DNA from: Ignavibacteria bacterium
Lineage (GTDB): Bacteria > Bacteroidota > Ignavibacteria > Tepidaquicellales > Tepidaquicellaceae
NCBI GenBank assembly: GCA_036262055.1
Contig: DATAJP010000001.1
Coordinates: 1-64,000, forward strand
Length of the DNA stretch: 64,000 nt
Reading direction: 5' to 3'
Shown here: positions 16,172 through 29,198 of the stretch, piece after piece
How positions within the stretch are numbered: the stretch's first letter is position 1
Layout of the letters: the number at the start of each line of letters is the position of its first letter
Notes under the pieces: model-generated
What the model was told of the DNA's origin: nothing
The model's input: only the letters and a program-made list of their open reading frames with translations
The model's database searches: none
Translations under genes and position numbers: made by a program

Positions 16172-18709
16172 TTATTTTATCAGCATCATTCGTTTTGTAT
16201 CTTTGAATCCTCCCGCAATAATGTGACAGAAATAAACTCCTGATGCAAGATTTACTCCGCTGAATTCTTCGGTATATAAACCTGCAAGACGTGTTTCATT
16301 TACAAGAGTGGCAACCAATCTTCCTGTAACGTCATAAACACGCATTGTAACGTGCAATTCATCGGGAATGGTGAAAGTAATTTGTGTTAAAGGATTGAAC
16401 GGATTCGGATAATTCTGCAATAACTCAAATTGAATGTCAGTTGGTATGCTTTGCGGAGGTTCCTCTTTTCTGAAAATGCTTCTTCCGTATGTTGCTGCAA
16501 CGACAAAAAATTCGTTCATTTGAGTTGTATAACTTCTCATCTCCGTTACTATAGCAGCTTCGGGCATTCCATCATTCCACCTGAACCAGCTAACGCCGCG
16601 GTTTGTGGTTTTATAACAGCCCATCTCAGTACCTAAGTATAAAACATTTATTTTTTTAGGATTAGTTACAATTGCAGACACCGGAACATTCGGAATATTT
16701 CCTGAAATGTTTGTCCATGTTGAACCTGAGTTTGTTGTCTTATAAACTTTCTTTCCATCCGTTAGTCCCGTCATTAATGCATAAACAATATTTGAATTTT
16801 CCGGATGGGGCGTAACTGCTCTAACGCGCAAACCAGCCGGAAGTCCTCCTGAAATTTCTGTAAAGCTTCCTGTATTTGACTTTAAAAAAAGCCGCTTACC
16901 CGCATCAGCTGTTGCCAAAATAACAAAAATATTTGTCGTATGTCCTTGCAAATAGTATATTGGAAAGAAATCATAAATTTGAGCCGGGAATGCGGCATCT
17001 TGTAATGACCAGGTTGTTCCGTAGTTAGTTGAGTAATATAAACCTGCCTGAGAATTTGTGTAAATTGTTGTTGGCGTTGTTCCAATTGCCCTAATCTTCG
17101 GGTAACCCTGCTGTGATGCGCCAATTCCTGTGCTTATGTCTGTCCATGAATTTCCATTATTGAGCGACATCAAGCGATGAAATGAAAGATTGTCGCCATA
17201 AACTCCTATTGTTCCATATACAAGTGCGCTGTTTGAAGGATCAACTGCGACTCCTCCTCCGTCTCCGCCCCAGTTCACGCCGTATTTCCAGAATAAACCT
17301 CCGTTTGTTGTTCCCGTAAATCCATTATCACGCGAGCCGCCCCAGATTACATCGGGATTGCTCGGACCGACATCAAAATTTACATATTGCGTTATCGGAT
17401 AATAATTTTCTTCGGTTGTATATGATTGTCCTCTGTCATCCGAAAACGAAACTCCTCCGTCATTGGCAACCCACATATTCTGTCCGGTCGAATCCCATAT
17501 TATTTCATGCAAGTCACAGTGCAGATTGTAGCTTGATGTAATGTCAGTTTCTTTCACCCAGTTGTTGCCGTTGTTAGAAGTTCTGTAAAGCCATACTCTC
17601 CCTGCAAATGCCAGCGCAGGATTTGTGGGACAAACACTTACTGTGTTAACATACCAGGCAATTCCGTCAAATACATCTTCATTCAAAGAAGTTCTTGTCC
17701 ATGAAGATTCATCGGCATTGGTTGTATAAACGCCAAGTAATTCATTATTATCGTCTCTTCCCATCAAAGCCCAGATAACGTTTGGAAAGTTTTTGCAAAT
17801 TGAAATTGAAGTTCTGCCGACATTTGAAGTTGGAAGCCCGGGGGTTGTAAGTCTGTGCCAGTTCGTTCCGCCGTTTGTTGATTTATAGATGCCTCCCAAA
17901 CCGCTGTCATTATCCCATAAGGCGCAATAAACAATATCAGGTGACTGAGAGTGTATATCAACATCCGATATTTGCCCATCCAGGTACTTTGTCCAGGTGA
18001 GACCATTGTCATCAGACCTGAAATATCCGCTTACAGTTACAGCATGAATTACATTCGGTCTGCCGGGTGCATAACGTATTTTAAAAAATTGATTTGAGAA
18101 TGCAGATATTTTTATCCAGTTAAGTCCTCTGTTTGTCGTTCTGTATAAGCCGGTTCCGTTGGAAACATACGGCTCGCCTGTCCCGACAATAATGATGTTG
18201 CTGTCAACGGGGCTAATATCGAAACTTCCTATAGCTAAGCTTGGAAGATTATCTGTTAAACATATAGGTTCGCTGCCGTTTGCAACCCATAACCCTCCCG
18301 ATGCCGCTGCGATTTTTAAATTATTATTTGAAAGCCTCATGTCTAGAACTCTGCCGCTGAATTTGCGTACACCGGTTGAATCCATTGCGCTTCCATATGG
18401 ACCAAGCACTTTCCACGGAACAACATTAGAGTTATCAAAATCTTTTTCATCCGGAACCATACGGGTTTCATCCCACATTTTAGTTAGCTGTTCCTGAGAA
18501 AGAATTGCATCTTCGGGATAGTGCGTTATACCGAAATATTCTTTTTGAAAGCCCGGCTCACCGCGCTGGTCAGAAGGTTTTTTGATTTTTACGGTATTTC
18601 TTAAATCGAAAGGTTTATTCTCGAAAGGAGAAAAATAAAATAAACAAAACGCAACAAATAAAACAATCAAAGAAGAAAATAATAAAAGAATTTTTTTAAA
18701 CTTTTTCAT
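16172..18709 (-). CDS. Large secreted Asp-box beta-propeller protein with type IX sorting domain (paralog A)
   Basis: 845 aa. The N-terminal hydrophobic segment (KKILLLFSSLIVLFVAFCLFYF) acts as signal or anchor. Repeated Asp-box motifs (TTNRGLNW, SDDNGLTW, STNGGTNW, TTNSGSTW, TTNRGVSW) indicate one or two seven-bladed propellers of the sialidase/VPS10-like type. C-terminal NYPNPFNP ending DTKRMMLIK is a type IX sorting domain. It is highly similar along its whole length to the next gene (18738-21293), which points to a tandem duplication. Role unknown; the fold suggests surface glycan or polymer binding. Confidence 0.88.
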   Translation of the reverse strand: MKKFKKILLLFSSLIVLFVAFCLFYFSPFENKPFDLRNTVKIKKPSDQRGEPGFQKEYFGITHYPEDAILSQEQLTKMWDETRMVPDEKDFDNSNVVPWKVLGPYGSAMDSTGVRKFSGRVLDMRLSNNNLKIAAASGGLWVANGSEPICLTDNLPSLAIGSFDISPVDSNIIIVGTGEPYVSNGTGLYRTTNRGLNWIKISAFSNQFFKIRYAPGRPNVIHAVTVSGYFRSDDNGLTWTKYLDGQISDVDIHSQSPDIVYCALWDNDSGLGGIYKSTNGGTNWHRLTTPGLPTSNVGRTSISICKNFPNVIWALMGRDDNNELLGVYTTNADESSWTRTSLNEDVFDGIAWYVNTVSVCPTNPALAFAGRVWLYRTSNNGNNWVKETDITSSYNLHCDLHEIIWDSTGQNMWVANDGGVSFSDDRGQSYTTEENYYPITQYVNFDVGPSNPDVIWGGSRDNGFTGTTNGGLFWKYGVNWGGDGGGVAVDPSNSALVYGTIGVYGDNLSFHRLMSLNNGNSWTDISTGIGASQQGYPKIRAIGTTPTTIYTNSQAGLYYSTNYGTTWSLQDAAFPAQIYDFFPIYYLQGHTTNIFVILATADAGKRLFLKSNTGSFTEISGGLPAGLRVRAVTPHPENSNIVYALMTGLTDGKKVYKTTNSGSTWTNISGNIPNVPVSAIVTNPKKINVLYLGTEMGCYKTTNRGVSWFRWNDGMPEAAIVTEMRSYTTQMNEFFVVAATYGRSIFRKEEPPQSIPTDIQFELLQNYPNPFNPLTQITFTIPDELHVTMRVYDVTGRLVATLVNETRLAGLYTEEFSGVNLASGVYFCHIIAGGFKDTKRMMLIK

Positions 18710-18737: not shown

Positions 18738-21293
18738 TTACTTCAGCAGCACCATCCGTTTTGTATCCCTAAATCCTCCTGCATGGATTGTAAGGAAATA
18801 AACACCTGACGACAGATGTGTTCCGTCAAAATCTTCCGTATATAGTCCCGAAAGCCGGGTTTCATTTACAAGCGTGCTGATTAATCTTCCCGTTATGTCA
18901 TATACCCGCAGTGTTACTTTGCTTTCTTCAGGAAGCGTGAACGTAATTTGTGTTATAGGATTGAATGGGTTCGGGTAATTCTGGAATAACTGAAACATTG
19001 TTTCTTCACCGGGAATATTTTGAGGAGGTTCTTCTCTTCTGAAAATTCCTCTGCCATAAGTTGAAGTATAAATGAAAAATTCATTCATAGAAGTCAGAAC
19101 AGGTTTCATCTCGGTAACGATTGCTGCTTCGGGCATTCCTTCATTCCATCTGAACCAGCTAAATCCTTTATTGGTTGATTTATAGCAGCCCATTTCCGTT
19201 CCAAGATATAATACAGCGGAATTTTTCGGATGAACAACAAGATGAGACATTACAACGTTCGGAAGATTTCCCGAAATGTTTGTCCATGTTAAGCCCAGAT
19301 TTTTAGTCCTGTACACTTTTTTTCCTGATTCTGTTCCTGTCATAAGCGCATATGCAACATTATTATTTGCCGGGTCAGGTACTACAGATTTAATCCATAA
19401 TCCTTGCTCAAGTCCTGTTGATCGCTCAACATAAGAAGCGCCATTTGAACTGATATAAAGACGCTTTCCGGTCTCAGCGGATTCAAGCCAGACATAAACA
19501 TTTGTTCTGCTGTTTGCAGGATAATACCCGATAGAAAAGTCATAGATTTTTGCCGGCAGAGCTGCGTCATACAAAGTCCAGTTCATACCGAAATTTTCTG
19601 TTTTATATAAACCTGTCCACGAGTTTGTAAAAAGAGTTGTCGGAGATGTTGGTATTGCGCGGATTTTAGGATACTCTTCCCTCGATGCGCCTATACCGTT
19701 GCTTACATCAAACCAGCTTTTACCAAAATCCATCGTTCTTATTCTGTGGAAAGCTAAAGCTCCGCCATAATTACCAAGTGTGGCATATAGAATAATGTGA
19801 TTAAACGGGTCAAATGCAATACCTCCTCCGTCAGCAGCAGAGGGATACGCATAAATCCATGAATTACCTCCGTTGGTCGTTCCGGTAACGGCATTATCGC
19901 GTGAGCCTCCAAAAATATAGTCTCTGTTGCTTGGTGCAACATCGAAATTAGCATACTGCGTGATGGGATAAAAATTATCCGCTGTTGAAAATGATTCACC
20001 GCCGTCATTTGAGTATGATACACCCCCATCATTCGCAACCCAAACGTCTTGACCGTTAGCTCCCCACAATACTTCATGCTGGTCTGCATGAAGATTTTTA
20101 CCTGCCGTTATGTCGGTATTCTGAAACCAGTTAAGTCCTCCGTTAGTAGTATGATAGAGCCATATCCCGCCGACTAAAGCAACCTGGGGATTGGTTGAAG
20201 AGACACCTATTGCATGCACATACCACCCGAATCCGCCACCTAAAATATCACCCCATTGGGTAGGTGAAACACTTGTCCATAGAACTCCGTCGGAAGCAGT
20301 TTTGTAAACACCAAGAAGAAAATTATTATCATTTCTTCCTATCAGTGCCCATATATTATTTGGTACATTTTTACAAAGCGCTAAAGAAACTCTCCCGACG
20401 TTTGAAGTTGGCAGTCCTTGCGTTGTAAGCTTTGTCCAGTTAGTGCCTCCGTTTGTTGATTTATAAATTCCTCCTAAATTTGTTCCCCTATCCCATACAC
20501 CAATGTGAGCAATATTCGGATCTAAAGGATTGACTATAACATCAGAAACTTCACCTTCAAAATACCTTGTCCAGTTTAAACCGTTATTATCAGACCTGTA
20601 ATATCCGTTTTTTGTCGCAGCGTGAATCACACTCTGGCTGTTTGGAGCATATATTAGTCTATAAAATCCTCTTGGTGTATTTCCCATGCTGATACGCGTC
20701 CAGTTTAATCCTCCATTTGTTGTCCTATGCAATCCTGTACCGTCTAATACGTTTGGTTCGCCTGTTCCCACTATGATAATGTTGCTGTCACCGGGATTAA
20801 TTGCGAAGCTTCCGATAGCAAGACTTGACAGATTATCAGTCATTGGAATCGGGTCTGCTCCGTTTGATGCCCATAAACCTCCTGATGCAGAAGCAATCTT
20901 CAGATTGCCGTTTGTAATTTTTAAATCTAAAACTCTTCCTGTGTACTTGCGTACTCCGGTTGAATCAATCGCTGAACCGTACGGACCTAATTGCCTCCAC
21001 GGAACAATGTTTGAACTGAAATCTTTTTCATCAGGCATGTTTTCAATTTCATCCCACATTTTTAAAAGCTGTTCTTGTTCTAAATCGGCAGATTCAGGGT
21101 AATGTGTCTTACTAAAATATTCTTGTTGAAATCCCGGTGAGCCGCGAAGCTCCTGTGATTTTTTAACTTTGGTTGTTTTTAATACATCGAAAGAATTGTC
21201 GTCATTTGATGAGTCAGCAGAGAAGTAAAAAACAAAAACTAAAATGGTTAATACAGGAAATAGTATCAATAATGAATTTTTGAGCTTATTCAT
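18738..21293 (-). CDS. Large secreted Asp-box beta-propeller protein with type IX sorting domain (paralog B)
   Basis: 851 aa. Same architecture as its downstream neighbour: hydrophobic N-terminus (LLILFPVLTILVFVFYF), conserved motif RGSPGFQQEYFSKTHYPE, multiple Asp-boxes (TTNGGLNW, SDNNGLNW, STNGGTNW, TKNLGLTW, STNKGFSW) and a sorting domain with NYPNPFNP ending DTKRMVLLK. Only 28 bp separate the two genes, so they are probably one transcription unit. No catalytic residues of sialidases can be identified, so the family name does not imply activity. Confidence 0.88.
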   Translation of the reverse strand: MNKLKNSLLILFPVLTILVFVFYFSADSSNDDNSFDVLKTTKVKKSQELRGSPGFQQEYFSKTHYPESADLEQEQLLKMWDEIENMPDEKDFSSNIVPWRQLGPYGSAIDSTGVRKYTGRVLDLKITNGNLKIASASGGLWASNGADPIPMTDNLSSLAIGSFAINPGDSNIIIVGTGEPNVLDGTGLHRTTNGGLNWTRISMGNTPRGFYRLIYAPNSQSVIHAATKNGYYRSDNNGLNWTRYFEGEVSDVIVNPLDPNIAHIGVWDRGTNLGGIYKSTNGGTNWTKLTTQGLPTSNVGRVSLALCKNVPNNIWALIGRNDNNFLLGVYKTASDGVLWTSVSPTQWGDILGGGFGWYVHAIGVSSTNPQVALVGGIWLYHTTNGGLNWFQNTDITAGKNLHADQHEVLWGANGQDVWVANDGGVSYSNDGGESFSTADNFYPITQYANFDVAPSNRDYIFGGSRDNAVTGTTNGGNSWIYAYPSAADGGGIAFDPFNHIILYATLGNYGGALAFHRIRTMDFGKSWFDVSNGIGASREEYPKIRAIPTSPTTLFTNSWTGLYKTENFGMNWTLYDAALPAKIYDFSIGYYPANSRTNVYVWLESAETGKRLYISSNGASYVERSTGLEQGLWIKSVVPDPANNNVAYALMTGTESGKKVYRTKNLGLTWTNISGNLPNVVMSHLVVHPKNSAVLYLGTEMGCYKSTNKGFSWFRWNEGMPEAAIVTEMKPVLTSMNEFFIYTSTYGRGIFRREEPPQNIPGEETMFQLFQNYPNPFNPITQITFTLPEESKVTLRVYDITGRLISTLVNETRLSGLYTEDFDGTHLSSGVYFLTIHAGGFRDTKRMVLLK

Positions 21294-21453: not shown

Positions 21454-22560
21454 TTATTTCATCAAAAACTTCTGCTGAAGTTCGCTGAAATAATATTTTT
21501 GATATTGCTCGCCGTTAGCAAGAAGCCAGTCAATTACAAAATCAAGCTCCTGTTCGGTCAAACCTTTATTAAATTCTCTTACGAATTCTGCTTTTATGTT
21601 TTCTTTGGTAGAGAGAGTTATCAGCGACGGATCATTTTCTCTTATGTTTATGTTTCTTTGATTTTCATATTTATAAACATCCTTAAACAGTTCAATGTAA
21701 TGTCCGTTCGCATCTTTATTAATATCAAATGTTTTATAAATTATCTGCACCGGAAATTTATCCACTTCTTCAAAATCATATTGCATTGTTCTTTTACTTC
21801 CAATCCAGCCGTTTAAATCTTTTGATTTTATAACTCGCCTTATCAAAAATCTTTTCATCTTATCTATGTTGTCATTATCGGTTCTTACGCAACCATGCGA
21901 CAAGCTTCTGATTTCATCATCAAGTAAATAAGGTTTATTTGTCCCGTGAAAATATCTTAAGGAATTTTCATCGTACCATACGGTAAATAATCCAAGTGGA
22001 TTTTTTGGACCCGGCGGAGTTGCTTCAAGATGCGCAAGCTTCGGGTCAGGGTCTTTCCATGTTGGCCAGTTTCTTATTCTGAACGCAGTGAAGTTTCCGG
22101 TTAGCGTTTTTGTGCTTGGCGCACCCACAACATGATTCCAGGTGTCCAAATAAATTGTATCATTTTGATAAAGCTGATAAATATTTGACTGAAACTGTGG
22201 TATGTTCAACTGCCAGAAAATTTTTGTTGTGTCAGCATTGAAATTCGGTTTAACATAATAACTCCATTCAAAGGTAAGAGATGTATCACCTTTTACTTCA
22301 TCAATTTTTACTACAGGTTTTGATTGTCGTGTGCTTAAAATTTCTTCTATTGCACTTTCGGGAATAATCGGGAAAAATTCGGTGATATGCTCCCGCATGC
22401 TGAGGTCTGCTTGTTCCTGGCTGGACGTTTCTACATAGAATCTTTCGGAATCGTTTCTCGGACTTTCTTGAGAAGCTTCTTTTATGGAATTTGCTTCCTG
22501 AGCAGAAAGCTTTGAGCAAATAATAAAAACAAATACTAAAAGGGTAATAAAATTTTTCAT
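21454..22560 (-). CDS. L,D-transpeptidase (YkuD family)
   Basis: 368 aa. Signal peptide at residues 1-21 (MKNFITLLVFVFIICSKLSAQ). The YkuD catalytic motif is SHGCVRTDN with nucleophile Cys224 and an upstream histidine in YFHG (His205). These periplasmic enzymes cross-link peptidoglycan or attach proteins to it and are insensitive to most penicillins. It is the last gene of a same-strand series behind nucleoside-catabolism-like genes with a 32-bp gap; the functional link is not obvious. Confidence 0.9.
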   Translation of the reverse strand: MKNFITLLVFVFIICSKLSAQEANSIKEASQESPRNDSERFYVETSSQEQADLSMREHITEFFPIIPESAIEEILSTRQSKPVVKIDEVKGDTSLTFEWSYYVKPNFNADTTKIFWQLNIPQFQSNIYQLYQNDTIYLDTWNHVVGAPSTKTLTGNFTAFRIRNWPTWKDPDPKLAHLEATPPGPKNPLGLFTVWYDENSLRYFHGTNKPYLLDDEIRSLSHGCVRTDNDNIDKMKRFLIRRVIKSKDLNGWIGSKRTMQYDFEEVDKFPVQIIYKTFDINKDANGHYIELFKDVYKYENQRNINIRENDPSLITLSTKENIKAEFVREFNKGLTEQELDFVIDWLLANGEQYQKYYFSELQQKFLMK

Positions 22561-22592: not shown

Positions 22593-23477
22593 TTAATAAG
22601 CCATTGTATGCCAGACGGTTTTTATTTCCGTGAATTTAATAATCTGTTCGAGATTATTATTTTCGTTTTTACTGAACCAATCATGCTTATCGGAAAAATA
22701 ATATAAGCGCTTTACGTTGAGCGCGCAAAGCTCCTGAACATTTTTTATTAGTTCTTTATCCGACGTGCACAAATCAACAGCTCTGACATCAAAATGTCCG
22801 CACAAATGAGAAATAAGCTCGCTTTTTTTACCTGTAAGAATGTTAATTGTTCCTGAAGGTACATCACTTGTAGCAATTACCTCCGAAAAGCTTAACGCAG
22901 GAAGCGGATATTTTTCATTTGCAAGAATAACGCATGAGCTTCCGCTTGCAATCACTGAGCAAATTCTTGAAACAAGCGGTATGAATGATAAAGTATCCGG
23001 TAAAACTATTGCAACAATCCCGACAGGCTCAGGAATCGAAAAATTAAAATAATTATTCTGCACAGGATTCACTGTTCCGTATAATTGCATCCATTTATCG
23101 CTGAAACCTGCATAATAAATTACTCTGTCTATTGCAGCTTCAACTTCTTTCTTAGCATTTGATTTCGAAGCACCTGTCGATAAAATTATTTCTTCGATGA
23201 ATTGTTCTTTTCTTCCTTCAAGCATTTCTGCCAGACGGTATAAAATCTGTCCGCGTTCATATCCCGTTTTTGATGACCAGCTTATAAGCCCCGGCGCAGC
23301 AGCCTGAACTGCATTGCGCACATCTTTTTTCGATGCTCGTGATATGTTGCAGATTTTTTCGTTGTTTTTTGGATTTAAAACTTCAAGATAACGCTCCGAT
23401 TCCGTGCGCGCAAACTTGCCGCCGATGAACAACTTATACATTTTTGGAACGCTTAACCTTGTTGAAGTTTTTGCCAT
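22593..23477 (-). CDS. Truncated aldehyde-dehydrogenase-like protein lacking the catalytic domain
   Basis: 294 aa against ~480 for active family members. The N-terminal coenzyme-binding half is recognisable (YKLFIGGKFARTESERYLEVLNP; PEPVGIVAIVLPD; GTINILTG). The sequence then passes to a typical ALDH C-terminal end (FTEIKTVWHTM) without the catalytic domain, so the nucleophilic Cys and general-base Glu are missing. The frame is intact, so this is not an obvious recent pseudogene. It resembles the shorter non-catalytic ALDH domain known from two-domain ALDH16 proteins. It follows two purine nucleoside phosphorylase genes by 5 bp, so a structural role in a nucleoside or deoxyribose catabolic complex is possible (inference). 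Confidence 0.7.
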   Translation of the reverse strand: MAKTSTRLSVPKMYKLFIGGKFARTESERYLEVLNPKNNEKICNISRASKKDVRNAVQAAAPGLISWSSKTGYERGQILYRLAEMLEGRKEQFIEEIILSTGASKSNAKKEVEAAIDRVIYYAGFSDKWMQLYGTVNPVQNNYFNFSIPEPVGIVAIVLPDTLSFIPLVSRICSVIASGSSCVILANEKYPLPALSFSEVIATSDVPSGTINILTGKKSELISHLCGHFDVRAVDLCTSDKELIKNVQELCALNVKRLYYFSDKHDWFSKNENNNLEQIIKFTEIKTVWHTMAY

Positions 23478-23482
23478 ACCTT

Positions 23483-24325
23483 TTATAACTTATTGATTAT
23501 CTCTTCAAGAACATCATTTAAAAACTCGTTCGATTTTTTTAAAGCTTTCTTTCTGTCCTTTTCCATCTCATCATCGTTTCTTTTATCTTCCATCATAACA
23601 TCAGCAACAAGATTTCTTGTAATCAGTCCAATGCCTGCAAATCTCATTCCGCTGTGAACAGCCGCAATGTTTTCAGGAACAAGAGAATATCCGACAACAT
23701 CTGCTCCAATCTCACGATAAAATCTTGCTTCAGCATCGGTTTCGCTCGCAGGACCAATCAATCCTATATAAACACTCTCGTTAACTTTTATTTTATTATC
23801 AATCAAAACTTTTGAGGAACGGTTCAATAATTTTGAGCTGTAAGCATCGCTCATATCAGGAAAACGCACACCGATGTCGCCGTCATTTGGACCAATCAAT
23901 GGGTTATCTCCCATTAAGTTAATATGGTCATATACCAAAGTAAAATCTCCTGTTTCAAACCGCGGATTTAAATGCCCAACTTCATCCAATGAAAGAATTT
24001 TTTTGACACCGCAAAACTTTAACGCATAAATTATGTGTCCGATATCCTGCATCGAAAACCCGTCATAATAATGCAGACGGTTTTTATAGATGAGCAAATC
24101 CTGCTTTCCACACTTCGCAGTCATTATAAAATAATTTCCTGCTTCAACCGGCTTGCTGAAATTATAGGAAAGCTCAGCTAAGTCGATAACGTTATTATAT
24201 TTAATCTTTGACGGCAGGTTAATATCCCCATCAAGTATCAAAGCAGTTTCCGGTTTAAAATTTTTCGGGAAAAATGATTTTATGTAATCTGCGCTCTCGA
24301 GTATTTTATCTTTTTGTTCACCCAT
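23483..24325 (-). CDS. Divergent purine-nucleoside-phosphorylase-like protein
   Basis: 280 aa. It aligns by eye with the neighbouring PNP along its length (NRLHYYDGFS vs GRFHYYEGYS; VGHLNP vs ACGALNP; GPASETDAEARFYREIGADVVG vs GPNLETRAEYRMLRKIGADVVG). The phosphate loop GTGLGG is replaced by LDGDIN, the NAxG loop by LDEVGHLNP, and MSTIPE by YSLVPE. Several substrate-contact positions are therefore lost. It may be a pseudoenzyme partner or have changed specificity. One base separates its ATG from the PNP stop, so the two are translationally linked. Confidence 0.75.
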   Translation of the reverse strand: MGEQKDKILESADYIKSFFPKNFKPETALILDGDINLPSKIKYNNVIDLAELSYNFSKPVEAGNYFIMTAKCGKQDLLIYKNRLHYYDGFSMQDIGHIIYALKFCGVKKILSLDEVGHLNPRFETGDFTLVYDHINLMGDNPLIGPNDGDIGVRFPDMSDAYSSKLLNRSSKVLIDNKIKVNESVYIGLIGPASETDAEARFYREIGADVVGYSLVPENIAAVHSGMRFAGIGLITRNLVADVMMEDKRNDDEMEKDRKKALKKSNEFLNDVLEEIINKL

Positions 24326-24326
24326 G

Positions 24327-25127
24327 TTAAAATTTTTCGACTAATTTTTCTGTTAATAACATTAATTTTTTTTCTGCAATCTCTGCAGACTCGATTATAT
24401 GTTCAAGCAAAGCAACTTTTAAAGTATCCGGAAAACCTTCATCCGTAATAATAGAAATCCCAAGTGTTTCAATTCCGATGTTTGATGCTGTGATAATCTC
24501 AGGAATTGTTGACATCCCGACAACGTCAGCACCGATTTTTCTAAGCATTCTGTACTCCGCTCTCGTCTCAAGATTCGGACCCTGAACAGATGCATAAACA
24601 CCTTTATGAATTTCGATTCCATTTTCCAGAGCAGTTTCCTCCGCAAGATTCAGTAATCTTTCAGAAAACTGCTTAATAGGTTTGTCATCATAAAAAAACT
24701 TTGCGCCTCTCAGCGGATTTGCAAAATGAAAATTCATATATGAAGATAAAAGCATTAGTTCGGTTTTTTTGTAAGTCGGATTCAATGCACCGCAGGCATT
24801 CGAGATTATAAGATTCTTTACTCCGAATGATTTTAAAACATGAAGCGGAAACGTAACATTGTAATGTGAGTATCCTTCATAATAATGAAACCGTCCCTGC
24901 ATCGCAATTATTTTTTTGCCGGCAAGCTTGCCAAAAAATAATTTTCCGTGATGAAATTCTACTGTCGATACAGGAAAATTCGGAATCGTATCATAATCAA
25001 AAACACAGTCGGGTTCGATTTTATTTACAAGTCCGCCCAGCCCGGTTCCTAAAATTATTCCTGTTTCGTATGTATCTTTTACGGTTTGTTCTAAAAATTT
25101 ACAAGCTTCGGCGTGAATTGTGTGCAT
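24327..25127 (-). CDS. Purine nucleoside phosphorylase
   Basis: 266 aa, the trimeric (PNP/MTAP) class. Phosphate loop GTGLGG (residues 27-32), substrate motif QGRFHYYEGYS, NACGALNP, GPNLETRAEYRM and VGMSTIPEI are all in place. It cleaves purine (deoxy)nucleosides with phosphate to a free base and (deoxy)ribose-1-phosphate. The specificity-setting residue after the ISI strand reads ITD rather than the common VTN, so its preferred base is uncertain. Its ATG overlaps the divIVA stop by one base (TAATG). Confidence 0.9.
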   Translation of the reverse strand: MHTIHAEACKFLEQTVKDTYETGIILGTGLGGLVNKIEPDCVFDYDTIPNFPVSTVEFHHGKLFFGKLAGKKIIAMQGRFHYYEGYSHYNVTFPLHVLKSFGVKNLIISNACGALNPTYKKTELMLLSSYMNFHFANPLRGAKFFYDDKPIKQFSERLLNLAEETALENGIEIHKGVYASVQGPNLETRAEYRMLRKIGADVVGMSTIPEIITASNIGIETLGISIITDEGFPDTLKVALLEHIIESAEIAEKKLMLLTEKLVEKF

Positions 25128-25762
25128 TACCTCGTTTCAAAATTTTCATCAAAGGAAGTTGATGGAAAAGTTATGTCGTTGATATTTTCGTTATCATTGG
25201 AAGCTTTTCGGACAGGCTCTTCAGGAAGAATCGAGAGCGAATCTAAATGTTCATTATGCTCATCATGTTCTTGCGAAGATTTCATTTTCGCAAGCTCCAT
25301 TTTGAATATTTTCTTATTCTTCATAAAATCTTCAAACTCGTTCAGCTTGTCGGTAAGAAAACTCTTCGTTTCTTCAAGCAGTCTTTCATTTTTATTCTTA
25401 ATCTCTTCAAGCTCATGTCTTTTGTTAATTATGTCCTCGTTAACATCCTGTCCGATTTTTTTGCTGTTCAATTCAGCTTCACGGACAATCAAATCTGCTT
25501 TGCGTTTTGCGTTGTTAACAATTTCTTCTGCTAAATCCTGTGACTTAACAATTGCTTTCTGAAGTGTAAGCTCATTCTCTTTATAGATGTTTATGTCATT
25601 CGTTAAGCTTTTCACTTTTTCCATCAGGTTCTTATTCTCGACAAGAAGCTTTTCGTAATGATTGCTTACGGTTTCAAGAAACGCCTCGACTTCATTAACG
25701 TCAAATCCCCTTAAAGATTTTCTGAAATCGTTTTTCTTAATGTCCCGTGATGTTAAGTTCAT
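25127..25762 (-). CDS. DivIVA-domain coiled-coil protein
   Basis: 211 aa. The N-terminal 40 residues match the DivIVA lipid-binding domain (SRDIKKNDFRKSLRGFDVNEVEAFLE). A long coiled coil with abundant Lys/Glu/Asn heptads follows, then an acidic, histidine-containing tail (SSQEHDEHNEHLDSL). DivIVA proteins sense curved membranes and organise division or polar growth. The family is typical of Gram-positives but also occurs in several Gram-negative phyla. Cotranscribed with yggS upstream (11 bp). Confidence 0.85.
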   Translation of the reverse strand: MNLTSRDIKKNDFRKSLRGFDVNEVEAFLETVSNHYEKLLVENKNLMEKVKSLTNDINIYKENELTLQKAIVKSQDLAEEIVNNAKRKADLIVREAELNSKKIGQDVNEDIINKRHELEEIKNKNERLLEETKSFLTDKLNEFEDFMKNKKIFKMELAKMKSSQEHDEHNEHLDSLSILPEEPVRKASNDNENINDITFPSTSFDENFETR

Positions 25763-25773
25763 AGTATTTGTTT

Positions 25774-26472
25774 TTAATTATTATAATTTCTATTTCCGAA
25801 AAGATAGCTTCCGACTCTTATCATGTTCGATCCTTCTTCTATTGCTATGTCATAATCCGACGTCATTCCCATTGATAAATATTCAAACTCAGGGTTTGAC
25901 TGTTTCAAATCATCGAACAAAATCATCATGTCGCGGAAATTTTGTCTGATAATTTCTTTGTCTTCGGTTAGTGTTCCGATTGTCATCAAACCCTTTATTC
26001 GTATATTTGCAAGCTGATTAATTTCTTCAACCAGCTTTTTTGTTTCATCTGCATCGACACCCGATTTTGTTGCCTCTTCGCTGATATTAACCTGAACAAG
26101 AATATCAATCACTCGGTTAATTTTTTCGGCATGTTTCTGAATTTCACTTGCAAGTTTAACGCTGTCAACAGAATGAATCAGATAAACAAAATCAATTATA
26201 TACTTTACCTTGTTCGTCTGCAGATGCCCGATTAAATGCCAATTGACATCAAGACCTGAAAGTTCCTCTTTCTTCTTAACCAGCTCCTGAACTTTATTTT
26301 CGCCAATGTCTTTCAAGCCGCATTTATAAATCTCCGAAACATATTCCGCAGGAAACGTTTTGGTAACTGCTACGATTGTAATTTCATCAGGATTTCTGCC
26401 TGCTTTCAAGCATAAATCGGAAACATTTTTTTTCAAAGAACGATAATTTTCGGCAATAAAAGATAAATCCAT
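25774..26472 (-). CDS. yggS: YggS-family PLP homeostasis protein
   Basis: 232 aa, standard length. An alanine-racemase-like TIM barrel without racemase activity, binding pyridoxal phosphate at the lysine of VAVTKTFP. Other landmarks are GENKVQE, NWHLIGHLQTNK and LSMGMTSDYDIAIEEGSNMIRVG. It keeps free PLP at safe levels. It begins a minus-strand series that continues into divIVA, a common neighbourhood for yggS. Confidence 0.95.
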   Translation of the reverse strand: MDLSFIAENYRSLKKNVSDLCLKAGRNPDEITIVAVTKTFPAEYVSEIYKCGLKDIGENKVQELVKKKEELSGLDVNWHLIGHLQTNKVKYIIDFVYLIHSVDSVKLASEIQKHAEKINRVIDILVQVNISEEATKSGVDADETKKLVEEINQLANIRIKGLMTIGTLTEDKEIIRQNFRDMMILFDDLKQSNPEFEYLSMGMTSDYDIAIEEGSNMIRVGSYLFGNRNYNN

Positions 26473-27581: not shown

Positions 27582-29198
27582 ATGAGAAAAATTGTCGAGT
27601 GCGTTCCTAACATTTCAGAAGGTCGCGACGAATCTATCATAAACGCTTGCGCAGAAGCGGTCAAAAAAGTCCCCGGAGTTACATTGCTTGATGTTGACCC
27701 GGGCAAATCAACTAACAGAACTGTATTTACATTCGTCGGAGACCCCGATGCAGTTGTCGAAGGCGCCTTCCAGTTTGCTAAGACTGCTTATGAGTTAATC
27801 GACATGTCAAAGCATAGCGGTGAGCATCCACGCATGGGTGCAGTCGATGTTGTGCCGTTTGTTCCCGTTGCAAATGTAACGATGGAAGACTGTGTTGAGT
27901 GCGCAAAGAAATTTGCAAAACGTGCAGGCGAAGAGCTTGGCGTTCCGATTTATTTATATGAAGAAGCATCAAACAATCCCGATAGAAAATCACTTCGTCA
28001 AATCAGAGCAGGCGAGTATGAAGGCATAAAAGATAAAATCGGTAAAAAAGAATGGAAGCCGGATTTTGGTCCGCAAAAATTTGTCCCGCAGTCAGGAGCA
28101 ACCGCCGCAGGCGCAAGATTCTTCCTCATTGCATACAACGTTAACATCCTCGGCACAAAAGAACAGGCGCATAAAATTGCGCTCAACATCCGTGAGCAGG
28201 GAAGAGGTGAAAAAGAACCGGGAAGACTCAAAGCAGTTAAAGGAATCGGCTGGTATGTCGAAGAATACGGCATGGCACAGGTCTCGATTAATCTCGATAA
28301 CTACAAAATTACACCGCCGCATATTGCTTATGAAGAATGCGCAGCTGATGCAAAGAAAATGAATCTTGCTGTTTGTGGTAGCGAGCTTGTCGGGCTTATC
28401 CCGCTCGAAGCAATGCTCATGGCAGCGGATTATTATATTCAAAAAGAAAATTTATTCATACTCGATGAGAAGCAAAAAATCCGTCTTGTCATCGAGCGTC
28501 TCGGTTTATCTTCCATTTCACAGTTCATCCCTGAGAAGCGTATCATCGAATACATGATTCAGGAAGAAGGAACCGAACCTCTTGCATCTATGAGCGTTCG
28601 TGATTTCGTTGAGCTTGTCGGCGCAAGAACTTCCGCTCCCGGCGGGGGAAGCGTGTCCGCGCTCATTGCCTCGCTCGGCGCAGGACTCGGCGCAATGGTC
28701 GGTTGGATGAGCTATGGAAACAAAAAATTCGAGCATCTCGATGCAACAATGCGAAAGTTAATTCCGCCGCTTCATCAAAAAATGAAGGAGCTTATTTCGA
28801 TGATTGATGCTGATACAAATGCATTCAATGATTACATGCTCGCAATGAAAATGCCTAAGACAAACGATGCCGAAATAAAACTCCGAGATGAAAAAATGCA
28901 GGCAGGTCTGAAAAAAGCTGTTGATGTTCCGCTTAGTGTTATGAAAATTGCAGACTCCTGCTGGGACTCGATGATTGAAATGGCAGCGCACGGAAACATT
29001 GCCTCGAAAAGCGACCTCGAAGTCGGCGCTAAATCTCTCGAGACAGGCATCTGGGGAGCGTTTAAAAACGTTCAGATAAATCTCCCGCAAATCAAAGACG
29101 AAAAATACAAAAAAGAAATTTTATCACAAGGCGAAGCCATTCTCAAAAACGCAGAACAATCTCTGAAAAAAGTCTGCGAAGTTTTGGATAAGAGGTAA
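27582..29198 (+). CDS. ftcD: Bifunctional glutamate formimidoyltransferase / formimidoyl-THF cyclodeaminase
   Basis: 538 aa, the fused form. Residues 1-~310 are the formiminotransferase (VECVPNISEGRD; SKHSGEHPRMGAVDVVPFVP). Residues ~335-538 are the cyclodeaminase (FVELVGARTSAPGGGSVSALIASLGAGLGAMV). It moves the formimino group from formiminoglutamate, the product of histidine breakdown, to tetrahydrofolate and releases ammonia. No other hut genes are in the window. Its base composition is clearly higher in GC than the gene that follows. Confidence 0.95.
   Translation: MRKIVECVPNISEGRDESIINACAEAVKKVPGVTLLDVDPGKSTNRTVFTFVGDPDAVVEGAFQFAKTAYELIDMSKHSGEHPRMGAVDVVPFVPVANVTMEDCVECAKKFAKRAGEELGVPIYLYEEASNNPDRKSLRQIRAGEYEGIKDKIGKKEWKPDFGPQKFVPQSGATAAGARFFLIAYNVNILGTKEQAHKIALNIREQGRGEKEPGRLKAVKGIGWYVEEYGMAQVSINLDNYKITPPHIAYEECAADAKKMNLAVCGSELVGLIPLEAMLMAADYYIQKENLFILDEKQKIRLVIERLGLSSISQFIPEKRIIEYMIQEEGTEPLASMSVRDFVELVGARTSAPGGGSVSALIASLGAGLGAMVGWMSYGNKKFEHLDATMRKLIPPLHQKMKELISMIDADTNAFNDYMLAMKMPKTNDAEIKLRDEKMQAGLKKAVDVPLSVMKIADSCWDSMIEMAAHGNIASKSDLEVGAKSLETGIWGAFKNVQINLPQIKDEKYKKEILSQGEAILKNAEQSLKKVCEVLDKR

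Follow-up and report, generated by a model that had tools for sequence, protein, structure and literature searches.

A free-standing ALDH16-type pseudo-domain as the probable detached second subunit of a split aldehyde dehydrogenase 16 in an Ignavibacteria bacterium

Introduction

Why should a bacterium keep a gene for what looks like half an aldehyde dehydrogenase (ALDH) behind two genes of the purine nucleoside phosphorylase (PNP) family? The gene in question, here called d2, occupies 22593..23477 on the minus strand of a 64,000-nucleotide stretch (hereafter the window) from the start of an Ignavibacteria contig, and encodes 294 amino acids with zero internal stops. An earlier note on this DNA described it as the coenzyme-binding half of an ALDH joined straight to the C-terminal end of such an enzyme, with the catalytic Cys and Glu omitted, and suggested that it might serve as a scaffold for deoxynucleoside breakdown. 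Two features of the superfamily frame the problem. In ordinary ALDHs neighboring subunits swap two elements, a hairpin and the C-terminal strand, and human ALDH16A1 has a two-domain architecture in which the second domain is a pseudo-domain.

Results

The gene run and its surroundings

The run lies on the minus strand and begins at 25774..26472 with a gene placed there by position and spacing, whose product we take to be a YggS/PLP-homeostasis-like protein. It is followed by a DivIVA-domain protein (25127..25762, minus strand; Pfam DivIVA, 3e-29), and the order of both is kept in relatives. Next come the two PNP-family genes, PNP1 (24327..25127, minus strand) and PNP2 (23483..24325, minus strand), the latter separated from d2 by 5 nt. 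Terminator-like sites were no more frequent than chance would give, and promoter-like sites exceeded the chance figure by little (26 against 19.2, sd 4.2).

A secreted L,D-transpeptidase-like (YkuD) protein is encoded 32 nt after d2 (21454-22560), a place that it keeps in many relatives of the family. Farther along are tandem genes for two similar secreted proteins of ∼850 aa each (16172-18709 and 18738-21293), with BNR/sortilin-like repeats recognized by eye and, at the end, an NYPNPFNPxTxIxF segment, as is typical for the sorting domains of type IX secretion. On the other side of the run, 27582-29198 encodes a 538-aa protein that appears by eye to be a fused glutamate formiminotransferase/cyclodeaminase; it is ∼80 per cent identical in two relatives (G003 and G017), and there too its gene is close to the operon.

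d2 is an ALDH fold without a catalytic domain

The Pfam Aldedh profile matches d2 over profile positions 4-232 of 461 (residues 25-258, E 1.4e-40), and together with a profile alignment against the partner protein d1, introduced below, this delimits a Rossmann-like half at residues 12-258 (22704..23444, minus strand). Nothing follows profile position 232 except a C-terminal strand, and the region of the catalytic Cys and Glu is missing; judged by its sequence, d2 is thus not an ordinary catalytic ALDH (PF00171), in which both residues would lie in the same chain. A poorly conserved linker (residues 262-281; 22635..22694, minus strand) takes the place of the catalytic domain and leads into the strongly conserved strand FTEIKTVWHT (residues 282-291; 22605..22634, minus strand), in which F282, E284, K286, T287 and W289 are invariant. 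The chain ends in 13 residues, FTEIKTVWHTMAY, equivalent to the C-terminal strand of ALDHs, and the direct joining of the two ends described in the earlier note is therefore confirmed. In the d2 proteins of G003 and G017 (L067:10180-11238 and L068:8235-9233) the linker carries an extra 40-60 repeat-like residues (VILRER...DSSG) before the strand, as if an in-frame mobile repeat had been inserted.

The second conserved element is an oligomerization hairpin at residues 129-147 (the MQLYGTVNPVQNNYFNFS region; 23037..23093, minus strand), located by hhalign comparison of the d1 and d2 profiles and containing V136, N137, F144, N145, F146 and S147, all invariant across 24 orthologues. The description of this half as coenzyme-binding holds for the fold but probably not for the coenzyme: the NAD-contact motifs of the catalytic partner (PWNFP, VIKSAE and FTGST) are not kept in d2, and NAD binding is consequently unlikely. 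An AlphaFold model of d2, computed from an input of six sequences only, had a mean pLDDT of 38.8, too low for the model to be of use.

Both halves of ALDH16 are encoded in the genome

In a phmmer search of the PDB, the top match to d2 was the bacterial ALDH16 structure 6mvr (E 6.4e-52), with the next kind of protein at 6e-33. Residues 12-289 of d2 align to residues 501-762 of the 767 in 6mvr, which is the second, non-catalytic domain of ALDH16, and the match extends into FTEIKTVWHTMAY. By these comparisons d2 has the makings of an ALDH16 pseudo-domain, with a Rossmann-like fold and a protruding flap and no catalytic domain, and the likeness to this domain that the earlier note saw in a separate gene is borne out.

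The genome encodes seven full-length ALDHs in addition to d2, and one of them, d1, is the evident partner. This 484-aa protein (G000:C2:992436-993890) is encoded directly downstream of deoC, the identity of which was confirmed with TIGR00126, on a contig other than that of d2; a full-length ALDH beside deoC is thus found where the earlier note had supposed that a partner might be encoded, elsewhere in the genome. The best PDB match of d1 is domain 1 of 6mvr (residues 26-475, E 1.1e-155; next kind 6.6e-131). It retains the catalytic Cys (GHVCCAG) and the Glu of LELGG, and so resembles a competent catalytic first domain of the bacterial type (the residue aligned to its Cys is Ala in 6mvu). Since d1 best matches the first domain of ALDH16 and d2 the second, the genome, as read from these alignments, encodes both halves as two genes.

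The nearest known system is the ALDH16 of Loktanella sp. (PDB 6mvr, 6mvs, 6mvt and 6mvu; Liu and Tanner 2019, as reviewed in PMC8160307), whose two domains, a catalytic first half and a pseudo second half, are matched in order and over nearly their full length by d1 and d2. The Loktanella enzyme, however, is a single 767-aa chain, whereas here d2 lies on contig C1 and d1 on contig C2; the two domains do not share one polypeptide, and we therefore speak of a split ALDH16 rather than of ALDH16 proper. Human ALDH16A1, compared by description, has the same two-domain build but lacks the catalytic residues that d1 keeps. The literature that we searched, which included only a minority of subscription papers, contained no description of a split ALDH16.

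d1 and d2 occur together, usually beside deoC

Orthologues of d2 were found in 31 of 59 relatives (55-68 per cent identity, ∼290 aa), and d1 was present in 30 of these 31 as against none of the 28 relatives without d2. The exception, G013, is a draft of 92 per cent completeness in which d2 was present and d1 was not found. No genome had d1 without d2, either among the 59 relatives or among 395 genomes of the phylum, and free d2 (in this survey an open reading frame of fewer than ∼420 aa) and free d1 occupied exactly the same 67 of the 395.

The shortness of d2 and the absence of its catalytic half might be taken to mean that a full-length ALDH has recently suffered a deletion here and is decaying into a pseudogene. 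A full-length ALDH at the same locus in relatives, which the earlier note had named as the refuting observation, was looked for and not found; the orthologues, throughout the order and the phylum, are ∼290 aa long. Among close pairs dN/dS was 0.035-0.078 for d2 and 0.029-0.056 for d1, figures that are rough given that synonymous sites approach saturation in several pairs; such low values indicate purifying selection and mark both as functional genes. The conserved orthologues and the dN/dS values rule out a recent deletion for all practical purposes.

In the 67 genomes d1 and d2 lie <200 bp apart in 57 and <1 kb apart in 61, are separated by 6.4-6.6 kb in two, and fall on different contigs in four, the window genome included. 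The usual order at Bacteroidota loci is deoC-d1-d2, and the same order is found in a single record from an actinomycete, Nonomuraea gerenzanensis (DeoC 59 per cent, d1 66 per cent and d2 45 per cent identical). Five further genomes of the phylum carry a fused ALDH16 gene (open frames of 806-1061 aa), which adjoins deoC in every case, and in Sinorhizobium and Agrobacterium a fused ALDH16 directly follows an annotated deoC.

Within the window family d2 lies mostly behind the PNP genes, with two members (G005 and G007) in which it still adjoins deoC-d1. A genus of another family, g100, also has d2 and d1 on different contigs (L136 of G087; G069 and G182). It thus seems that d2 separated from deoC-d1 more than once.

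This separation invites the thought that d2, at least where the genes lie apart, is a free-standing regulatory or binding pseudoenzyme that works independently of d1, all the more so as human ALDH16A1, without catalytic activity, reportedly acts through protein partners (PMC10650815). Against this, d1 was never seen without d2 in either survey; a separated d1, as in the window genome, still lacks oligomerization elements of its own, and the strand motif of d2 stays conserved after relocation. We regard an independent role as unlikely on these grounds and favor the reading of d2 as a subunit that has moved away from the gene of its partner.

Common ancestry with fused ALDH16

The NAD-domain halves of free and fused d1 and d2 were placed in a tree with the other ALDHs of the window genome. 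Free and fused d2 formed one long branch (support 100/100) with the other ALDHs of the genome outside it, the free d2 sequences (99/95) and the fused ones (100/93) each grouping on its own side of the branch, and fused d1 also formed one group (98/90). This topology argues for common ancestry of d2 with the second domains of fused ALDH16, and one fission or one fusion would be enough to account for the free and fused forms.

Complementary losses in d1 and d2

The chain of free d1 ends 11-14 residues after SGFGRE in 27 of 28 proteins measured (the exception, G391, has a low-complexity tail), whereas in the two other ALDHs of the window genome for which this motif allowed a measurement the chain continues for 20-36 residues beyond GxGR and includes the strand (FTEAKNVCIKY and YTETKHIHI). 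In the hhalign profile alignment the hairpin of d1 is also shorter, by ∼11 residues, than its counterpart in d2. In sum d1 lacks the C-terminal strand and most of the long hairpin, and d2 retains exactly these two elements, such that d1 could only receive in an exchange and d2 only give. The classic ALDH dimers and tetramers (ALDH1, ALDH2 and betaine aldehyde dehydrogenase) share the fold and likewise use the hairpin and strand for oligomerization, but there every subunit both gives and receives, in contrast to the division of labor that would obtain in the split enzyme.

The PNP neighbors

PNP1 scores 291.5 bits against NF006054 (cut-off 218) and keeps the catalytic motifs of the family, but lacks the interface loop that ends in RFPDM. 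PNP2 presents the reverse: it is recognized by Pfam PNP_UDP_1 (1.2e-26) and falls below the NCBIfam PNP cut-offs, the catalytic motifs GTGLG, SNAxG and GMST are absent from it, and it retains the loop (23846..23926, minus strand), identified by motif comparison and by reference to calf PNP loop 141-168. This reciprocal pattern holds in 24 of 24 genomes (23 scored and the window), and PNP2 is a degenerate and, on the strength of its motifs, apparently non-catalytic paralogue.

Both proteins belong to the family of trimeric PNPs of the calf and human type. In the calf enzyme the subunit interface is made by loop 141-168, from which Phe159 reaches the active site of the neighboring subunit, although replacing Phe159 alone with Ala changes activity little (PMC9916683). 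Nine outgroup PNPs, drawn from families elsewhere in the class and each a single protein, have retained the RFPDM-ending loop as well as the catalytic motifs (GTGLG, RFHxYE, SNAxG and GMST), and one outgroup genome (G049) contains a second, more divergent PNP that is also without the loop, so that loop loss alone is not unique. The complementary loss suggests that PNP1 and PNP2 form a hetero-oligomer, likely an obligate one, in which PNP2 would supply the interface loop, though strict alternation of two subunits is impossible in a cyclic trimer.

Does d2 belong to this assembly? It might be expected to, for most genomes of the window family that carry d2 have it behind PNP1-PNP2 in a single gene run, the gap to PNP2 in the window is 5 nt, and the PNP, d2 and d1 genes fit one pathway; a scaffold joining the PNPs and the ALDH into a single deoxynucleoside-breakdown complex was proposed in the earlier note. 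However, almost every genome of the order carries the PNP1-PNP2 tandem, and 12 of the carriers have neither d2 nor d1, which means that PNP2 is not bound to the presence of d2. Across most of the phylum, moreover, d2 stands with deoC-d1 and no relative of the window PNPs is nearby: its distribution tracks d1, not the PNPs. The scaffold is not borne out and strikes us as highly improbable, and on the same distribution we reject a d2-PNP complex as the main function. PNP2 is a neighbor that the split-ALDH16 model does not require. As for the idea that two degenerate enzymes mark an undescribed complex, PNP2 and d2 are indeed both degenerate, but each seems to belong to a separate hetero-oligomer, in which it completes a catalytic partner of its own.

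Discussion

We conclude that the window gene, which is not an artefact, most likely encodes the detached second subunit of a split ALDH16, a variant of the known enzyme. Homology, co-occurrence with d1, linkage to deoC, shared ancestry with fused ALDH16, complementary loss and purifying selection are what the analysis shows, and from them we consider it quite probable that d2 donates structural elements to d1 in an acetaldehyde-oxidizing heteromer. In such a heteromer d2 would dock on d1 as the second domain of ALDH16 docks on the first, and would contribute its hairpin and C-terminal strand in trans. The resulting d1.d2 heterodimer would copy the protomer of ALDH16, which in turn mimics the classic ALDH dimer, and would probably be doubled to a heterotetramer; ALDH16 for its part is a dimer of two-domain protomers that resembles the ALDH tetramer. 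Two observations count against this model: in the window genome d1 and d2 lie on different contigs, where co-expression is not evident, and G013 has d2 without d1.

The putative substrate follows from gene linkage. DeoC yields acetaldehyde and glyceraldehyde-3-phosphate (PMC6365646), and as d1 adjoins deoC, acetaldehyde is the most likely substrate. The holoenzyme would then oxidize the acetaldehyde released by DeoC during deoxynucleoside breakdown, at the end of a pathway leading from PNP through phosphopentomutase and DeoC to ALDH16. Three PGM/PMM-family proteins of the genome are candidates for the phosphopentomutase, none assigned with certainty.

We are evenly divided on whether the gene run holds two helper pseudo-subunits that act in trans, with d2 providing strands to d1 and PNP2 a loop to PNP1. 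If the complementary loss in PNP1 and PNP2 has been read correctly, theirs would be a second case in which a homo-oligomer has become a pair of catalytic and helper subunits, and one deoxynucleoside pathway would contain two obligate hetero-oligomeric enzymes derived from known homo-oligomers or single chains.

ALDH16 is poorly understood, and its extra domain has no agreed role. Human ALDH16A1 has been linked to gout, and an unproven connection with the purine-salvage enzyme HPRT1 has been proposed (PMC10650815). An ALDH16 that is naturally encoded by two genes offers a system in which the second domain can be added or removed freely, and the linkage of both split and fused ALDH16 to deoC in several lineages provides a concrete substrate hypothesis, namely acetaldehyde from deoxyribose-5-phosphate. 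The ∼290-aa 'aldehyde dehydrogenase' open reading frames that lie beside deoC in Bacteroidota may be re-annotated from fragments to subunits.
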